This document shows, piece after piece, positions 7,991 through 18,502 of a stretch of DNA of 64,000 nucleotides (position 1 is the stretch's first letter; each line of letters starts with the position of its first letter). The translations under genes and the position numbers were made by a program. Under the pieces are notes generated by a model, which searched no databases, was not told the DNA's origin, and saw only the letters and a list, made by a program, of their open reading frames with translations. Origin of the DNA: Blautia parvula (GTDB taxonomy: Bacteria; Bacillota; Clostridia; Lachnospirales; Lachnospiraceae); assembly GCF_020215665.1 (NCBI RefSeq), contig NZ_CP084061.1:2636001-2700000 (forward strand). Reading direction: 5' to 3'.

Positions 7991-8043
7991 AATAAAAGAA
8001 CAAGGCAGAATCCAGACGTTTCCGCATTCTGCCTTGTTCTTTA
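7991..8043 (-). terminator. Intrinsic terminator after the short binding lipoprotein gene
   Basis: A perfect 16-bp stem (arms 7996-8011 and 8026-8041) with a 14-nt loop, followed on the minus strand by UUUUAUU. The stem begins inside the stop codon of the upstream gene. Confidence 0.88.
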
Positions 8044-8616
8044 CTTTTTTATTATGATATCTTTTTCCAGATACTTCTTGGAAATCTCACTCAGCGTTCC
8101 GTCCTTTATCAACGGACTCAAAGCCTGATTTTGTATGGCCGGGATAAGACAGCTTCCCTTTTTGCCAAATACGGCAAGTTTGGTATATTCCGCTTTTTCT
8201 CCCAGTTTATCCTGTACCGATGAAACATCTGCGTAGGCTTTTGTGGCGGAGTAGTGTTCTTTGTTCCACTCGGTTATGCCTACGGTAGAGATAACACAGT
8301 CATATAAGTCTGCATCCAGGGAATTCAGAAGATTTTCCTCTGTAGTGTCTATGATTTCCAGGGACAGTCCGAGTTTTTCTGCCACTTTGGCGGCTGTATC
8401 CGGGGCAAAGCCAGCCGGTTTTGCTGTGCTTTCATCCACATAACCCATGGAGCCGTCATTCAGATTGATGCCGACTTTCAGGACGCCTTTTTCAATCGTT
8501 GTGATCTTCCCCTCCCCTTCACAGTCCTTTGGGGCTCCGCATCCGGTCAGCACCGCCGCCGTCAGAACTGCTGCTGCCAGGGCACAGACCATACGGCGGA
8601 TTTTATTTTTCTTCAA
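8041..8616 (-). CDS. Short amino-acid-type solute-binding lipoprotein, apparently lacking much of one lobe
   Basis: 191-residue secreted lipoprotein: positively charged start, hydrophobic segment and lipobox LTGC with the cysteine near residue 26. The mature part begins like a family 3 (amino acid) ABC binding protein: GVLKVGINLNDG, PAGFAPDTAAKVAEKLGLSLEII, LYDCVISTVGITE. It ends like one too (LIKDGTLSEISKKYLEKD). Normal members have 240-260 mature residues; here the piece between about residues 130 and 150 is compressed, removing most of the second lobe. No permease or ATPase is adjacent. The start codon is TTG at 8616 behind GAGGTGG. It may be a decayed copy or a reduced sensor-like protein. 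Confidence 0.75.
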   Translation of the reverse strand: MKKNKIRRMVCALAAAVLTAAVLTGCGAPKDCEGEGKITTIEKGVLKVGINLNDGSMGYVDESTAKPAGFAPDTAAKVAEKLGLSLEIIDTTEENLLNSLDADLYDCVISTVGITEWNKEHYSATKAYADVSSVQDKLGEKAEYTKLAVFGKKGSCLIPAIQNQALSPLIKDGTLSEISKKYLEKDIIIKK

Positions 8617-12400: not shown

Positions 12401-12572
12401 TTTGCAACTCCGGCCAAACTGTTCCTTCTATTTATATGTATTTATTTTTCTGAAAAGACTTTCTCTTCACACGTCAATATGATAAAATATCAAAATAATA
12501 ATTTCACAATGTCTGCAGCAACAGGCCGGAACAAAACCTATCGTGCTGCCGGCCGAGGGAGGGAGTTTTGAC

Positions 12573-13163
12573 ATGACATTCGATGTATTATCTTCACTGG
12601 CTGTATACGCCCTGGTGACAGGATGGTCGCCCGGGCCTAACAATGTACTGCTTCTGAGTACCACAGGACAGTTCGGATTGAAACGGAGCATGAAACTGAT
12701 CACCGGTATATGGACCGGATTTCTGATTATTATGCTTCTCTGTGCAGTCTTCAGTGTGGGGCTTGGAAAACTGCTGCCCGGAGTGGTACCCTATCTGAAA
12801 TACATAGGCGCGGCTTATATCCTGTATCTTGCCTTTACAGTGCTTAAGAGAAAGCCTGTGCAGGCAGATGACGGCACAGGAAAAGCGCCTTCTTTTGCCT
12901 CTGGTTTTCTGCTGCAGTTTATCAATGTAAAAGTTATCCTGTACGGCATCTCTGCTCTGAGCAGCTATGTCCTGCCCTATGAAAGCGGGGTTCCGGCGCT
13001 GATCTTCTTTGCCTTTTTCCTGACATTCTTCGGCGCCACAGGAAATCTTGTCTGGGCTTTGATCGGGAGTATCTTTCAGAAATGGTACAATAAGTATTAT
13101 ATCGCATTCAATATCATCATTGCACTGCTGCTTGTCCGCTGCTCTGTAAAACTGATCCTGTAG
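12573..13163 (+). CDS. LysE/RhtB family amino-acid exporter
   Basis: 196-residue membrane protein with about six hydrophobic segments, the usual size of the LysE/RhtB exporters. The signature GWSPGPNNVLLLS near residues 16-28 matches the conserved PGPN motif after helix 1. It is expected to export an amino acid or a derivative using the proton gradient. The ATG at 12573 follows GGGAG by 7 nt; the in-frame GTG at 12543 lies before that site and is not preferred. It is transcribed towards the TRAP operon and shares the bidirectional terminator with it. No regulatory gene is adjacent. Confidence 0.85.
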   Translation: MTFDVLSSLAVYALVTGWSPGPNNVLLLSTTGQFGLKRSMKLITGIWTGFLIIMLLCAVFSVGLGKLLPGVVPYLKYIGAAYILYLAFTVLKRKPVQADDGTGKAPSFASGFLLQFINVKVILYGISALSSYVLPYESGVPALIFFAFFLTFFGATGNLVWALIGSIFQKWYNKYYIAFNIIIALLLVRCSVKLIL

Positions 13164-13276: not shown

Positions 13277-16219
13277 CTATTTAAAAGCATTCACCAGATC
13301 CTGTCCGTCATCATATCCCTGTGATTTCAGTTCTTTGACAAACCAGTCATCAATCCCGTCAACTGCTTTTTTGAAGGAATCAATGTCCAGATCTTTATAT
13401 TCGGTGATCTTCACGCCGTTCTGATTCGCCCAGCGCGTCTTGATCTCATCATCTCCGGCGCGGTTGATCTCACGCTCGTATTTTACCGCTTTTGCGCCTG
13501 CTTCATCCACTACCTTCTGCTGTTCAGGTGTCAGGCTGTCATACAGCTCCTGGTTGATGCAGAAAAACAGGCAGTCATAGTTGGCATTCCACATGGAGCA
13601 GTATTTCTGTACTTCCTGGACACTGGCTGCGTCGATAGCGGGAAGGGGATTCTCCTGCCCCTCCACAGTGTTCTGCTGCAGAGCCGTGTAAGTCTCTGAC
13701 CAGTTCATATTCGTGGCATCAGCGCCCCATCTCTTGTAGCATTCCATCAGCAGATTAGAGCCTGCCACACGAATCTTCAGCCCTTTCATATCATCTGTAG
13801 ACTTGATCTCCCGTACGGAGTTGGTCAGTTCCCTGAATCCGTTCTCCGCCATGCCCATACAGTGCAGGCCGTATTCTCCCAGGATCTCTTTCATCTTCTC
13901 TCCGCCTTCCCCATCCAGTTTCTTATCCGCGTCCTCCACGGACTGGAATAAGTACGGTATGGAGACCACATTGAAACGCGGATCAAAGGCTGAGTAGATC
14001 AGGTTGGAGTGCATGGAGATCTGTACCGGATCACCGTCCATCAGGGCCTGGATGCCCTCGGACTGGTTTCCGTTTGTGAGCTGGTCGGCAGCATAGACAT
14101 TTACCTTTACTTTGCCCCCTGTGGCCTGCTCCATCAGCTCCCCGAATTTTTCACCGGCTTTTGCCCAGGTACTTGTCTCCGTGGTGGAGCAGGCAAAATT
14201 CCAGGTCTGTGCGTTCCAGTCAAGATCACTGGAATCCTCCATGGAATACTCTGCGGTGCTTCCCTCCGCAGAAGTAAACGCGCGGATCAGTTCCCTGACC
14301 TCTTCCTTGTCATACCCTTCTTTTACCAGTTCCTCCTCATACCACTGAGGAATATCCTCCACAGCCTTTTTGAAGGAATCAATATCCAGGTCTTCATACG
14401 CTGTCACATCCATGCCGTTTTCTGTCTGCCAGCGGTTCAGGATCTCATCATCACCGGCACGGTTGATCTCACGCTCATACTGCACGGCCTTCTGGCCGAT
14501 CTCGTCCACAACCTCCTGCTGCTCCGGTGTCAGTTTGTCATAGACTTCCTGGTTTATGCCGAAGAAGAGGCAGTCATAGTTGGCGTTCCACAGGGAACAA
14601 TACTTCTGTACCTCCTGGACACTGGCTGCGTCAATAGCCGGAAGGGGATTTTCCTGGCCCTCCACGGTGTTCTGCTGCAGAGCGGTATAAGTCTCTGACC
14701 AGTTCATATTGGTGGCATCAGCGCCCCATCTCTTGTAGCATTCCATCAGCAGATTGGAACCTGCCACACGAATCTTCAGGCTCTTCATGTCATCCACGGA
14801 TTTTACTTCCCTGACAGAGTTGGTGAGCTGGCGGAAACCGTTCTCAGCCATGCCCATGCAGTGCACGCCGTAGCTCTCCAGGATCTCTTTCATCTTCTCA
14901 CCGGCTGCCCCGTCCAGTTTTGCGTCCGCGTCCTTCACAGAATCGAACAGGAAGGGCAGGGATACCACATTGAAACGCGGGTCAAAGGCAGAATAGATCA
15001 GGTTGGAATGCATGGATATCTGCACCGGATCCCCGTTCATCAGGGCCTGGATGCCCTCGGACTGGTTTCCATTGGTAAGCTGGTCGGCAGCATAGACATT
15101 CACATGAATTTTGCCGCCTGTGGCCTTTTCCATCATTTCACCGAATTTACGCCCTGCCTCAGCCCAGGTGCTGGTCTCTGTGGTGGAGCAGGCAAAGTTC
15201 CAGGTCTGCTCCTCCCAGGCAAGGTCGCTTCTGTCTTCCACTTCATAATTACCTGATGTCCCGGAGGTAAAGGCTTCTATCAGTTCTTTTACCTCTGCTT
15301 CGTCATATCCCTCTTTTACCAGCTCCTCCTGATACCACTGCGGAATGTCTGCAACGGCATTCTTGAAGGAGTCAATATCAAGATTCTCATACGCTGTGAT
15401 CTTCACGCCGTTCTGTTTGGTCCAGCGCTCTTTGATCTCATCATCACCGGAGCGGTTGATATCGCGCTCATAGTCAACAGCCTTCTTTCCTGCCTCGTCC
15501 ACTACCTTCTGCTGTTCCGGTGTAAGGCTGCCGTACAGCTCCTCATTGATGCAGAAGAACAGACAGTCATAGTTGGCATTCCACATGGAACAGTATTTCT
15601 GCACTTCCTGCACACTGGCCGCATCGATGGCCGGAAGGGGATTCTCCTGCCCCTCCACCGTATTCTGCTGCAGGGCGGTATAGGTTTCAGACCAGTTCAT
15701 ATTGGTGGCATCAGCGCCCCATCTCTTGTAGCATTCCATCAGCAGATTGGAGCCTGCCACACGGATCTTCAGGTTTTTCATATCCTCCGCGGTCTTCACT
15801 TCTCTGACGGAGTTTGTGAGCTGGCGGAAGCCGTTCTCTGCCATACCCATACAGTGCAGTCCGTATTCCTCCAGAAGCGCATTCATCTTTTCCCCTGCCT
15901 CGCCGTCCAGTTTGGCATCTGCGTCCTCCACAGAGTTAAAGATAAACGGCAGGGATACCACGTTAAAGCGCGGATCGAAAGCAGAATAGATCAGATTGGA
16001 GTGCATGGAGATCTGTACCGGGTCTCCGTTCATCAGGGCCTGGATACCCTCGGACTGATTGCCGTTGGTAAGCTGGTCAGCCGCGTATACTTTTACGTGT
16101 ACTTTGCCGCCTGTGGCTTTCTCCATGAGCTTTCCGAACTGTTCCCCGGCCTTTGCCCAGGTACTGGTCTCCGTGGTGGAGCAGGCAAAATTCCAGGTCT
16201 GCTCTTCCCAGCCCAGATC
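13277..16219 (-). repeat. Three tandem ~1-kb direct repeats encoding DctP-like domains
   Basis: The 3' two-thirds of the TRAP fusion gene consists of three repeats of 331-333 codons, at about 15227-16219, 14228-15226 and 13277-14227. The motif TWNFACSTTETSTWA recurs at residues 472, 803 and 1136. At the DNA level long stretches differ by single bases, for example around 13699-13778, 14698-14778 and 15692-15772. The near identity points to recent amplification or ongoing gene conversion. Confidence 0.93.
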
Positions 16220-17611
16220 ACTGTAGTCACCAATCTCATTGTAATCCTCAGAACTGTTGTCCCCGGCTGTACTGTCTGCATGATCTGTCAGCTTGGAGGT
16301 TCCCGTATAGGAGCTTCCGGCAAAAACCTTGGGCAGGCACACAGATATCTGGGGGATATAGGTGACCATCAGCAGCACCACTACACACGCTGCGATCATG
16401 GGCACAACTGCCCTGGATATCTGCTGCAGGCTGACTTCCAGTCCCTTTTTGATCTTAATACTGATGGCGACAAACAGATTGACACCCACAGGAGGCGTTA
16501 CCTGCCCGATCGCCAGGTTGACGGTTGCCAGAATACCGAAGGCCACCAGGTCATATCCCAGCGCCTTGCAGACCGGCAGCATAATGGGAATAAATATGTA
16601 CATGGCGGAGTTGGCATCAATAAAGCATCCCGCGATCAGGAAGATCACATTCACGATCAGAAGGAAAATGAACTGATTGTGGGCAACACTTCCTAAAAGC
16701 TCCGAGGCTGCCTGGGAGATTCCGAACTTTGTGCAGACAAAGGAAAACAGGGACGCACATGCCACAATGAGCATGATACCGCCTGTGGTCTTGGCTGAAT
16801 CCACAAAGATATCGATCAAATCCCTGAACTTGACTTCCCTGTAGATGACCATACCCACAAAGAGTCCGTATACCACGGAAACGGCTGCTGCCTCTGTCGG
16901 TGTGAAAATACCGCCATAGATACCGCCCAGAATGATAACCGGCATCAGAAATCCCCAGAACGCGTCACCGAACGCGCGGAATCTCTCGCCCCAGGCGGCT
17001 TTCTTAGTTGTTGGCTGGATACCTTTTCTGCGGACTTCGATCATGATCACAAGGATCAGTGCAAGTCCCATAAGGATTCCGGGCAGGATACCGCCGGCAA
17101 ACATATCCGCAATCGATACACCTGTGATGGATGCATATACCACGAACGCAATACTGGGGGGTATGACAATGGCAATGGAACTTGACGTTGCCATCATTGC
17201 CGTGGAAAACGGTGCCGAGAAGCCTCCCTCCTCCACCATGGCCGGGATCAGAACCGCGCCGAGCGCCGCAACCGTAGCCGGACCGGAGCCGGAAATTGCT
17301 CCGAAGAAGCAGGCCACAATAACACACACAATGGCAATGCCGCCTCTTCTGTGTCCCACACAGGTATTTACAAACTTAATGAGACGTTTGGATATTCCCG
17401 CCTTTGCCATAATATTTCCGGACAACACGAAAAACGGAATCGCCAGCAGCAGAAACTTGCTGATGCCGGAATACATATTGGTAGCCACGATCGTCAGGGA
17501 TGTACCTGAGTACAGTATCGCGCACACGGAGGACAGGCCCAGACAGATGGCAATGGGAACATTCAGGATCAGAAAGATAAAAAAGGATAAAAACAATACC
17601 GCACTTACCAT
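13277..17611 (-). CDS. TRAP transporter large permease (DctM) fused to three tandem DctP-type solute-binding domains
   Basis: 1444-residue fusion. Residues 1-428 are a complete DctM permease: hydrophobic throughout, with PFFVLSGNIM, GAISGSGPATVAALG, SIAIVIPPSI, GGIYGGIFTPTEAAAV and NLAIGQVTPPVGVNLF. A Ser/Asp/Gly-rich linker (~430-464) leads to three DctP-like binding domains at about 465-795, 796-1128 and 1129-1444. Each has the conserved ligand arginine region LKIRVAGSNLLMEC and ALQQNTVEGQENPLPAI, joined by short acidic linkers with no internal signal peptide. A normal DctM is ~430 residues and DctP is a separate secreted protein. The ATG abuts the dctQ stop codon. No other dctP gene is nearby, so these domains should be the binding component. 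For function the C-terminus must lie outside the membrane; this cannot be confirmed here. Ligand unknown. Confidence 0.93.
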   Translation of the reverse strand: MVSAVLFLSFFIFLILNVPIAICLGLSSVCAILYSGTSLTIVATNMYSGISKFLLLAIPFFVLSGNIMAKAGISKRLIKFVNTCVGHRRGGIAIVCVIVACFFGAISGSGPATVAALGAVLIPAMVEEGGFSAPFSTAMMATSSSIAIVIPPSIAFVVYASITGVSIADMFAGGILPGILMGLALILVIMIEVRRKGIQPTTKKAAWGERFRAFGDAFWGFLMPVIILGGIYGGIFTPTEAAAVSVVYGLFVGMVIYREVKFRDLIDIFVDSAKTTGGIMLIVACASLFSFVCTKFGISQAASELLGSVAHNQFIFLLIVNVIFLIAGCFIDANSAMYIFIPIMLPVCKALGYDLVAFGILATVNLAIGQVTPPVGVNLFVAISIKIKKGLEVSLQQISRAVVPMIAACVVVLLMVTYIPQISVCLPKVFAGSSYTGTSKLTDHADSTAGDNSSEDYNEIGDYSDLGWEEQTWNFACSTTETSTWAKAGEQFGKLMEKATGGKVHVKVYAADQLTNGNQSEGIQALMNGDPVQISMHSNLIYSAFDPRFNVVSLPFIFNSVEDADAKLDGEAGEKMNALLEEYGLHCMGMAENGFRQLTNSVREVKTAEDMKNLKIRVAGSNLLMECYKRWGADATNMNWSETYTALQQNTVEGQENPLPAIDAASVQEVQKYCSMWNANYDCLFFCINEELYGSLTPEQQKVVDEAGKKAVDYERDINRSGDDEIKERWTKQNGVKITAYENLDIDSFKNAVADIPQWYQEELVKEGYDEAEVKELIEAFTSGTSGNYEVEDRSDLAWEEQTWNFACSTTETSTWAEAGRKFGEMMEKATGGKIHVNVYAADQLTNGNQSEGIQALMNGDPVQISMHSNLIYSAFDPRFNVVSLPFLFDSVKDADAKLDGAAGEKMKEILESYGVHCMGMAENGFRQLTNSVREVKSVDDMKSLKIRVAGSNLLMECYKRWGADATNMNWSETYTALQQNTVEGQENPLPAIDAASVQEVQKYCSLWNANYDCLFFGINQEVYDKLTPEQQEVVDEIGQKAVQYEREINRAGDDEILNRWQTENGMDVTAYEDLDIDSFKKAVEDIPQWYEEELVKEGYDKEEVRELIRAFTSAEGSTAEYSMEDSSDLDWNAQTWNFACSTTETSTWAKAGEKFGELMEQATGGKVKVNVYAADQLTNGNQSEGIQALMDGDPVQISMHSNLIYSAFDPRFNVVSIPYLFQSVEDADKKLDGEGGEKMKEILGEYGLHCMGMAENGFRELTNSVREIKSTDDMKGLKIRVAGSNLLMECYKRWGADATNMNWSETYTALQQNTVEGQENPLPAIDAASVQEVQKYCSMWNANYDCLFFCINQELYDSLTPEQQKVVDEAGAKAVKYEREINRAGDDEIKTRWANQNGVKITEYKDLDIDSFKKAVDGIDDWFVKELKSQGYDDGQDLVNAFK

Positions 17612-18118
17612 TTACGCCTCCTCCTTTCTCTTGACAAATTTAAAATCCGTACAGAAATCAATACAGTATTCCACAAAATGCAGGATCATGCAGACGGAGC
17701 CAATGGGCACAAAGGACCAGAAGATCCATTCCGGCCAGTTCAGCACAAAGGTCCTCTTTCCATTGGCAAGCTGGGTCAGCACCTTATCCATGCCGTATTT
17801 AAACAATATTACAGTAAATATCACTGAGAGCACAGTCACAAGAACGACAACGGGTTTCTTTGTCTTCCCGGGCAGCCTGTCCGTTACCAGCGTAAGGCTT
17901 ACCAGCTCTCCTTCCCGGCAGGCCAGAGCGGCTGCCATAAGTGTGATCAATACAAAAACTGCCACCACCAGCTCTTCCGTAAATGACCAGGAGCGGTGTA
18001 TTACTTTCCTGGAAAATACATTTCCCACGGTGAGAACCAGGATCAGCAGTGTGGATGCAGCCAGGATCAGCTTCTCAGCCGCTGCCAGCACATCCATGAT
18101 CTTCTTGTAGACTTTCAT
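17612..18118 (-). CDS. dctQ: TRAP transporter small permease subunit (DctQ)
   Basis: 168-residue membrane protein with four hydrophobic segments (about residues 17-37, 48-66, 87-105 and 128-148), the layout of DctQ. Family-like pieces are RSWSFTEELVV and NGKRTFVLNWPEWIFW. It pairs with DctM to form the membrane part of a TRAP importer that uses the sodium or proton gradient. The ATG at 18118 is chosen because GAGGAGG lies 7 nt upstream; a longer frame to 18211 would run into the leader RNA. Its stop codon directly abuts the DctM-fusion ATG, so the two are translationally coupled. The operon sits behind the T-box leader. Confidence 0.88.
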   Translation of the reverse strand: MKVYKKIMDVLAAAEKLILAASTLLILVLTVGNVFSRKVIHRSWSFTEELVVAVFVLITLMAAALACREGELVSLTLVTDRLPGKTKKPVVVLVTVLSVIFTVILFKYGMDKVLTQLANGKRTFVLNWPEWIFWSFVPIGSVCMILHFVEYCIDFCTDFKFVKRKEEA

Positions 18119-18195
18119 CACATTTCCTCCTCTTGTTATAGTAAGACATATAAAATCGCACACATATGCCCGTGCAGGGCGCACATTCAGAGCAT

Positions 18196-18502
18196 AAAAA
18201 AAGCCCCCCAATCATGAGGGACGAACTGAATCCGCGATACCACCCTTTTTCCGCGCAGGGTTGCCCCTGCCGGCACTTGCAACATACTGACATATGTGTT
18301 TCCTGTAACGTGGAACCTACGTCAGCGCCTAATCAAACATAACGGCCTTTCAGCGCTGCTTCTCCGGGATGATACATAAGCCTCCCGGACGCCTGCCTCA
18401 CACCTGCCGGCAGTTCTCTGAACATCCATCCTGAAACTTATGCTTCCCTTCATCGAATTTACAAATTCTGATTGTTCACATCTAATATTTTATAATATCT
18501 TA
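18196..18502 (-). promoter_or_regulatory. T-box leader of the TRAP operon, specifier AUC (isoleucine)
   Basis: The minus-strand RNA has the T-box sequence AGGGUGGUAUCGCGG (18232-18246). It is followed by a terminator stem GUCCCUC/GGGGGGC and a seven-U run (A-run 18196-18202), 78 nt before the dctQ start. Upstream, Stem I shows GAUGA, the AG bulge CAGAGA and the apical GGUGUGAGG segment. Aligned with the thrS leader in this window, the specifier position (three bases before A-YCYC-GAG) reads AUC at 18371-18373. The UGGU bulge would pair with ACCA, and tRNA-Ile has discriminator A. Uncharged tRNA should prevent termination and switch the transporter on. The S-turn reads AGCA instead of AGUA. 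Confidence 0.87.

Follow-up and report, generated by a model that had tools for sequence, protein, structure and literature searches.

In a 64,000-nucleotide stretch of the Blautia parvula genome (the window), we identified a gene encoding a complete DctM permease followed by three complete DctP receptor domains on one chain. We read the locus, with a probability of roughly 70%, as a tethered multi-receptor importer of the TRAP (tripartite ATP-independent) type. DctQ and DctM would form the membrane transporter of this secondary importer, and DctP would have become a C-terminal extension of DctM that was then duplicated in tandem to three copies; transport, ligand and localisation are predicted from sequence. 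The channel is of an ordinary, known type, and how many receptors it carries varies over evolution, from one to four among relatives.

Architecture of the fusion gene and its surroundings

The fusion is a single frame of 1444 codons (13277-17611, minus strand) with an ATG start and no internal stops in the ORF list of the window, and Pfam recovers the full DctM and three DctP domains in series that the earlier note had described. We estimate the intact chain at roughly 155-160 kDa. The permease domain (16346..17593, minus strand; residues 7-422) scores 362 bits against a Pfam cut-off of 23.8 and 414 bits against a cut-off of 268 with the NCBIfam model TIGR00786 (dctM), and its top Foldseek matches are TRAP QM structures. 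Past the last membrane helix lies an acidic, polar linker (16235..16345, minus strand; residues 423-459), recognised by sequence, pLDDT and charge count. The receptor domains follow on the same strand: domain 1 (15242..16234; residues 460-790), whose closest solved structures are DctP proteins, domain 2 (14243..15241; residues 791-1123), placed by Pfam and the domain alignment, and domain 3 (13280..14242; residues 1124-1444), which runs to the stop codon at 13277-13279. The three DctP stretches sum to 703.7 bits in Pfam. Inter-domain stretches are short, polar and rich in Ser, Gly and Asp, and inspection by eye, with no predictor used, revealed no signal-peptide-like segment between domains, as the note had observed.

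The gene for DctQ, the small TRAP membrane subunit (17612..18211, minus strand; Pfam DctQ 2.2e-31, 109 bits against a cut-off of 28.3), lies upstream, its stop codon abutting the DctM start codon. The listed ORF begins with TTG at 18211; our guess is that the true start is probably an ATG near 18118. The fusion gene has as its tail-to-tail neighbour a gene for a LysE-type exporter (12543..13163, plus strand; Pfam LysE 7.1e-11), whose best NCBIfam model, a cysteine/O-acetylserine transporter, falls below its cut-off. A homologue of the window DctQ adjoins DctM in 40 of 40 neighbourhoods (the window and L041-L079). The LysE-type family occurs near the transporter in 21 of the 40, and the next family, apart from DctQ, in 6. 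The LysE-type exporter is thus the only widely recurrent neighbour besides DctQ in these 40 neighbourhoods, from which no substrate could be read, and it is a possible functional partner of the transporter.

The genome, a single 6.25-Mb contig, contains eight DctM genes over the cut-off in a profile search, against seven separate DctP genes, and we therefore take the fused domains to be the fusion permease's own receptors. None of the ten DctP matches in the genome (seven separate and three fused) is an unpaired separate receptor, and the separate exported receptor usual for TRAP systems is absent for the fusion permease. The fusion system is ordered Q-M-P; the other seven systems are ordered P-Q-M, with Q unrecognised in one of the seven.

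Distribution and receptor number among relatives

The earlier note had proposed a search for DctM joined to multiple DctP domains across Clostridia. Forty loci were taken from public genomes, all of them kept for the domain counts, and 35 carry an intact fusion, with one DctP domain in 10, two in 20, three in 4 and four in 1. The five relatives with three or four copies are all metagenome-assembled; judged by record titles, the other records fetched have one or two. At least 16 of 397 genomes of the family, the window's own included, carry a fused frame with a DctM 65-100% identical, among the matches listed, whose frames were checked. In samples of the order, class and phylum (392, 391 and 398 genomes), the only fused frame outside the family, at the thresholds used, was in G425, from the same order. 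Long matches in G748, G932 and G536 were rejected as adjacent separate genes, and a long open frame in G1252 as an ordinary DctM. A match in G1374 covers both parts and has an internal stop, and several frames of 603-656 amino acids in the phylum-level search fall below the length needed for both DctM and DctP. These wider searches favour relatives of the window protein and would miss unrelated fusions such as G4Q5D7 of Acidaminococcus intestini, which belongs to another lineage.

Because one receptor suffices in 10 of the 35 intact fusions, the extra copies are not essential. They could be neutral by-products of recombination between repeats, with one receptor doing the work. This would fit the lability of copy number, from one to four, as seen in the near relatives L043 (three copies) and L065 (one copy), which share 94% DNA identity across their DctM parts. 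However, dN between the window's domains is 0.10-0.13 and dS 0.96-1.28 (near saturation), a dN/dS of about 0.1, and the domains are under purifying selection. Multi-domain forms also make up 25 of the 35 intact fusions, a share possibly biased by search patterns derived from the window protein. We consider neutral copies unlikely.

Origin of the fusion and exchange between repeats

A quick DctM tree, which left out L029, L077, L079, L080 and most of L002-L017, had long outgroup branches, so a smaller, more careful tree was made. In the DctM tree of 40 hand-picked loci and the window, the fused proteins are not one clade, which suggests that the fusion probably arose more than once. Free receptors with lipoprotein-like or secretory N-termini directly follow DctM at L072/L020, L022 and L029, and at L117, too, DctM is followed by a free receptor.

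Domains 1 and 2 of L057 share an identical run of 626 nt. The single domain of L063, an Oliverpabstia protein, is an apparent mosaic of both L128 domains: a single breakpoint accounts for 85 of 120 informative sites, and 0 of 5000 shuffles fit as well. Derivation of L065 from the three domains of L043 by a single breakpoint was not supported in the mosaic tests. No remnants of lost domains were found within up to 2.5 kb behind the ten single-receptor genes. As a tentative proposal, held at somewhat below even odds, we suggest that the receptors never leave the permease and that their number, from one to four, acts as an evolvable dial for capacity, which in-frame recombination of repeats resets and gene conversion keeps uniform, the fusion having arisen at least twice in one group of Clostridia.

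Receptor domains and predicted ligand

The three DctP domains of the window share 81-83% amino acid identity. Across 79 domain rows from 46 loci (an alignment without L059, L077, L079 and L080 in which only nine of the loci below L041 were kept), 84 positions are invariant, including R596, R617 and N657. In SiaP and its equivalents, the carboxylate is bound by Arg-147 (PMC4646407). Judged from the conserved KIRV motif in alignments, not from a structure, R617 would be the counterpart of this residue; a DctP family 7 receptor with a putative carboxylate-binding arginine is present. Given their identity, their low dN/dS and a nearly invariant core, the three domains most likely share one organic acid as their ligand; the solved receptors nearest to them, 4p8b, 4p47 and 7bbr, are too distant for it to be named. 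In the receptor tree, the window's domains form no supported group of their own (L059, L077, L079 and L080 were left out, as were L019, L021, L052, L073 and L018, which are repeats or cut).

Alternatively, the domains may be specialised for different ligands, so that a tandem array gives one permease a broader choice of substrates, as in GlnPQ, whose two fused receptors differ in specificity (PMC8025302). The window's domains do vary at some positions; the residue following LFF, for example, is C, G and C in domains 1-3. However, the core with the conserved Arg and Asn is nearly identical in sequence in all three, and the differences lie mostly in C-terminal helices and linkers, as they mainly do within 26 multi-domain proteins. 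We regard such specialisation as less likely still than neutral copies.

Topology and linker

The earlier note had supposed that an altered DctM topology might be needed to place the receptors outside. We reject this, as a solved DctM, SiaM, is already N-out/C-out (PMC9971032), and the charges agree: more Lys and Arg precede the last membrane helix than follow it in 53 of 54 fused-protein rows, and the numbers are equal in one. About 45-61 flexible-looking residues separate this helix from the first receptor in the fused proteins, and AlphaFold gives a pLDDT below 50 at residues 440-455. The model of the permease with one receptor (M-P1) is mediocre (pLDDT 74, pTM 0.53) and that with two (M-P1-P2) too poor for use (pLDDT 62, pTM 0.42); these models gave no evidence for docking of a receptor on the permease.

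The flexible-looking stretch might also allow the receptors to be cleaved from the permease after export and to act free, the fusion then being a device for co-expression and export only. No conserved cleavage motif was apparent in the linkers inspected by eye, and a cell lacking an outer membrane would lose freed receptors, making this quite improbable. That separate genes were joined by an error of sequencing or assembly is refuted as far as the fusion itself is concerned: repeats are generally assembly-prone and L059 has a frame break inside its second domain, but 35 of the 40 loci carry an uninterrupted fusion, and several of these do not come from metagenome assemblies. The window's repeats share only 79-80% DNA identity, so that collapse or invention of a repeat is unlikely.

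Proposed mode of action

In the tethered importer that we favour, the last DctM helix would bring the C-terminus outside, as in a solved DctM, and for that reason the receptors would need no signal peptide. Each receptor may bind the same organic acid through a conserved arginine (R617, R948 and R1281). Loaded receptors would dock singly on the external side of QM, passing their substrate to the ion-driven elevator, while the remaining receptors wait, loaded, close by. The tether would take over from the lipid anchor that ordinary Gram-positive receptors have, and would fix the receptor:permease ratio at 3:1, and copy number would shift through recombination and gene conversion between repeats. 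A raised receptor:permease ratio is the most likely consequence, and the capture capacity of the tethered receptors may rise as well. The earlier idea of tethering is upheld. As HiSiaP and HiSiaQM bind only in the micromolar range (PMC10942642), a tether plausibly helps.

How receptors couple to the ion-driven elevator is an open question for TRAP systems, hampered by the weak P-QM complex. Natural covalent P-QM proteins with one, two, three or four receptors, together with sister systems with free receptors, provide a ready series for structural work and for the effects of receptor:permease ratio on flux and affinity. The fusion may also reveal a means by which TRAP receptors are retained in bacteria that lack an outer membrane.

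Comparison with known systems

As in DctPQM/SiaPQM TRAP transporters (DctP type), DctQ, DctM and DctP are all recognised by curated models, and they match SiaQM/IseQM and SiaP in both sequence and fold. Unlike in DctPQM/SiaPQM, the receptor is fused rather than separately exported, and there are three per permease. Because M-P fusions are treated as TRAP systems (PMC9352664), a separate receptor is a usual rather than a defining trait. G4Q5D7 of A. intestini, a natural single M-P fusion called rare, likewise has DctP and DctM on one chain; compared by description, the window protein differs in its several receptors, which go unmentioned for G4Q5D7 in the part of the source consulted (PMC9352664). 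The earlier note knew of no described triple DctP-DctM fusion: a single M-P fusion is in print (PMC9352664), whereas TRAP fusions with two to four receptors were not found in the literature searched.

The TAXI-GltS fusions of Lachnospiraceae, the same bacterial family, also join a receptor to an elevator-type secondary transporter, an arrangement explained as tethering without a periplasm; there, the receptor is N-terminal and single, and both receptor and transporter belong to other families (PMC12344293). GlnPQ similarly has several serial receptor domains fused to a membrane part, but it is an ATP-driven ABC importer with an unrelated permease and receptors differing in specificity (PMC8025302). 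An ABC-type permease is absent from the fusion, whose permease is DctM, and the likeness to GlnPQ lies in the mode of working only.

The fusion gene and its genome

The fusion gene (window 13277-17611, minus strand) begins with ATG and forms an open frame of 1444 codons, in which Pfam places DctM at residues 7-422, followed by three DctP stretches; the single frame with DctM and three DctP domains proposed in the earlier note is thus borne out. A DctQ gene, also recognised by Pfam, lies directly upstream. The genome, a single 6.25 Mb contig, holds eight DctM genes above the cut-off (a ninth, weak match falls under it), and its DctP complement comprises the three fused domains and seven separate places. 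Each of the remaining seven DctM genes has a DctP upstream, and the six of these systems with a recognised Q have the order P-Q-M. Because every other DctM has its own DctP, the simplest reading is that the fused domains serve as receptors for the permease that carries them. Another DctP place (L009, G000:C1:2183922-2184752) contains an in-frame TAG within the match, indicative of a broken gene or a sequencing error.

Distribution and genomic neighbourhood

A single scan of genome contigs yielded 40 loci, in each of which P domains were counted. One locus has four (L041), four have three (L042, L043, L044 and L057), 20 have two, intact, and ten have one; one more has two with a broken frame (L059), one has a free P (L072), and three are cut by contig ends (L077, L079 and L080). 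Genera that appear in the record titles include Blautia, Hespellia, Roseburia, Fusicatenibacter, Oliverpabstia, Robinsoniella and Brotaphodocola. In a partly overlapping sample of the window's family, the fused frame, verified by a check of the frames, occurs in at least 16 of 397 genomes (own genome included), with DctM identities of 65-100%. Four further genomes of the window's genus, listed in the order-level sample, all fell short of the search threshold. The five relatives that carry three or four copies all come from metagenome assemblies, and the fetched non-MAG records carry one or two. We conclude that the fusion is real, neither chance nor artefact, and that it is distributed across one group of Clostridia. 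In L059 (8001-11332, a Blautia massiliensis GD8 record), the second DctP domain is frame-broken, and there are relatives in which it is intact; this could be a sequencing error.

A LysE-type exporter gene (window 12543-13163, plus strand) converges on the fusion gene, the two lying tail to tail. Among 40 neighbourhoods (the window and L041-L079), with genes taken as crude longest-ORF picks and some flanks cut, a LysE-family exporter is near the transporter in 21 and adjoining in 13. These relatives are 41-75% identical to the window's exporter, and their surroundings mostly differ; one also adjoins the free-receptor form L072. The pairing suggests that acid import may be linked to export of an amino-acid-like product, and the exporter is a possible clue to the transporter substrate. 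The locus closest to the window, L062 (a Blautia sp. MAG), is flanked by the same gene families in an unchanged order, yet has one receptor. A short family-3 solute-binding protein (window 8041-8616, minus strand, 191 aa) has a 189-aa homologue in the syntenic L062, so this short form is common to both.

Topology

The earlier note feared a cytoplasmic C-terminus, a worry that the solved M subunit and the charge pattern argue against. Residues 14-428 of the fusion protein align to Photobacterium profundum SiaM (chain 7qha_B), the M subunit that the cryo-EM study of SiaQM describes as N-out and C-out (PMC9971032). Across 54 fused rows, some species being entered twice, Lys/Arg averages 4.3 in the loop before the last DctM helix versus 2.0 after it (higher before in 53, equal in one), and the stretch after this helix has a mean of 8.9 acidic residues. 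At L072/L020, L022 and L029, a separate receptor gene with a lipoprotein-like or secretory N-terminus directly follows DctM; the order at L117 is likewise Q-M-free P. By eye, the L023-L028 fusions have a linker that resembles the N-terminus of the mature free receptors at L022 and L029. Exported receptors after DctM, together with this likeness, provide a further, evolutionary argument for C-out.

The receptor domains

The three window domains share 81-83% amino acid, 79-80% DNA and 56-62% third-position identity pairwise (NG86 dN 0.10-0.13; dS 0.96-1.28, near saturation). Low dN against near-saturated dS indicates that all three are old and that purifying selection acts on each of them. An alignment of 79 domain rows, drawn from 46 loci, has 84 invariant positions, including R596, R617 and N657; domains on the same chain vary mainly in the last helices and linkers (26 multi-domain proteins). 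The arginine equivalent to SiaP Arg-147, which binds the acid group, is reported in 96.8% of DctP receptors analysed (PMC4646407), and in our reading of the KIRV motif in alignments to solved receptors R617 would be its counterpart. We infer that the three domains probably share one ligand, a carboxylate. The cysteines C477 and C683 are also invariant over the 79 rows, in a domain inferred to be extracellular; a disulfide or redox role is possible for such cysteines.

Origin and repeat evolution

In the DctM tree (41 rows, careful run), the free-receptor loci L022 and L117 branch stepwise, on starred branches, below the fused L023-L028 group, and L072 is placed elsewhere. A single clade of all fused rows was rejected (p-AU 2e-50). 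The free or fused state requires a minimum of four changes on this tree, for which we prefer repeated fusion over repeated loss of fusion with signal peptides regained.

The receptor tree, a quick run with many weak forks, mostly clusters domains by organism or clade, with no supported group of the window's three; exceptions are close pairs that cluster by position, such as L055/L056 and the second domains of L047/L053 and L049/L076. These groupings point to recurring duplication and/or gene conversion. Domains 1 and 2 of L057 (8001-12431), a metagenome assembly, share an identical run of 626 nt, indicating recent gene conversion or duplication. The single domain of L063 (Oliverpabstia) looks like a mosaic of both L128 domains: a single breakpoint is consistent with 85 of the 120 informative sites, a fit equalled in 0 of 5000 shuffles. 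L128 (genome G102) has the genus code of G394, whose DctM is identical to that of L063. Three comparisons of L065 with L043 domains gave no such break.

Mechanism and comparison with known systems

An AlphaFold model of DctM with the first DctP (pLDDT 74, pTM 0.53) matched TRAP QM structures (IseQM, SiaQM) and DctP receptors in Foldseek; the two-receptor model was poor. Modelled TRAP complexes are described with the receptor on the periplasmic side of QM, itself an elevator (PMC9352664, PMC9971032), and P-QM affinity is reported as only micromolar (PMC10942642). The components, their fusion, the receptor copies and the selection on them are the documented part of the mechanism. The tether would turn docking on QM intramolecular, and extra receptors could hold loaded binding sites beside the permease. 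In GlnPQ, tandem receptors are reported to bind independently, and the transport rate falls with longer linkers (PMC8025302).

Q-M fusions are mentioned in a 2018 TRAP review (PMC5812351), and a TAXI-GltS fusion is reported from Lachnospiraceae (PMC12344293). The earlier note knew of no described triple fusion. This stands in that, among the open-licence papers listed, judged by title and abstract start, none presented at least two DctP fused to DctM; a single M-P fusion is already in print (PMC9352664). The multi-receptor architecture may be listed in domain databases such as InterPro. TRAP transporters and the M-P fusion are already known, and what is new here is several receptors per permease.
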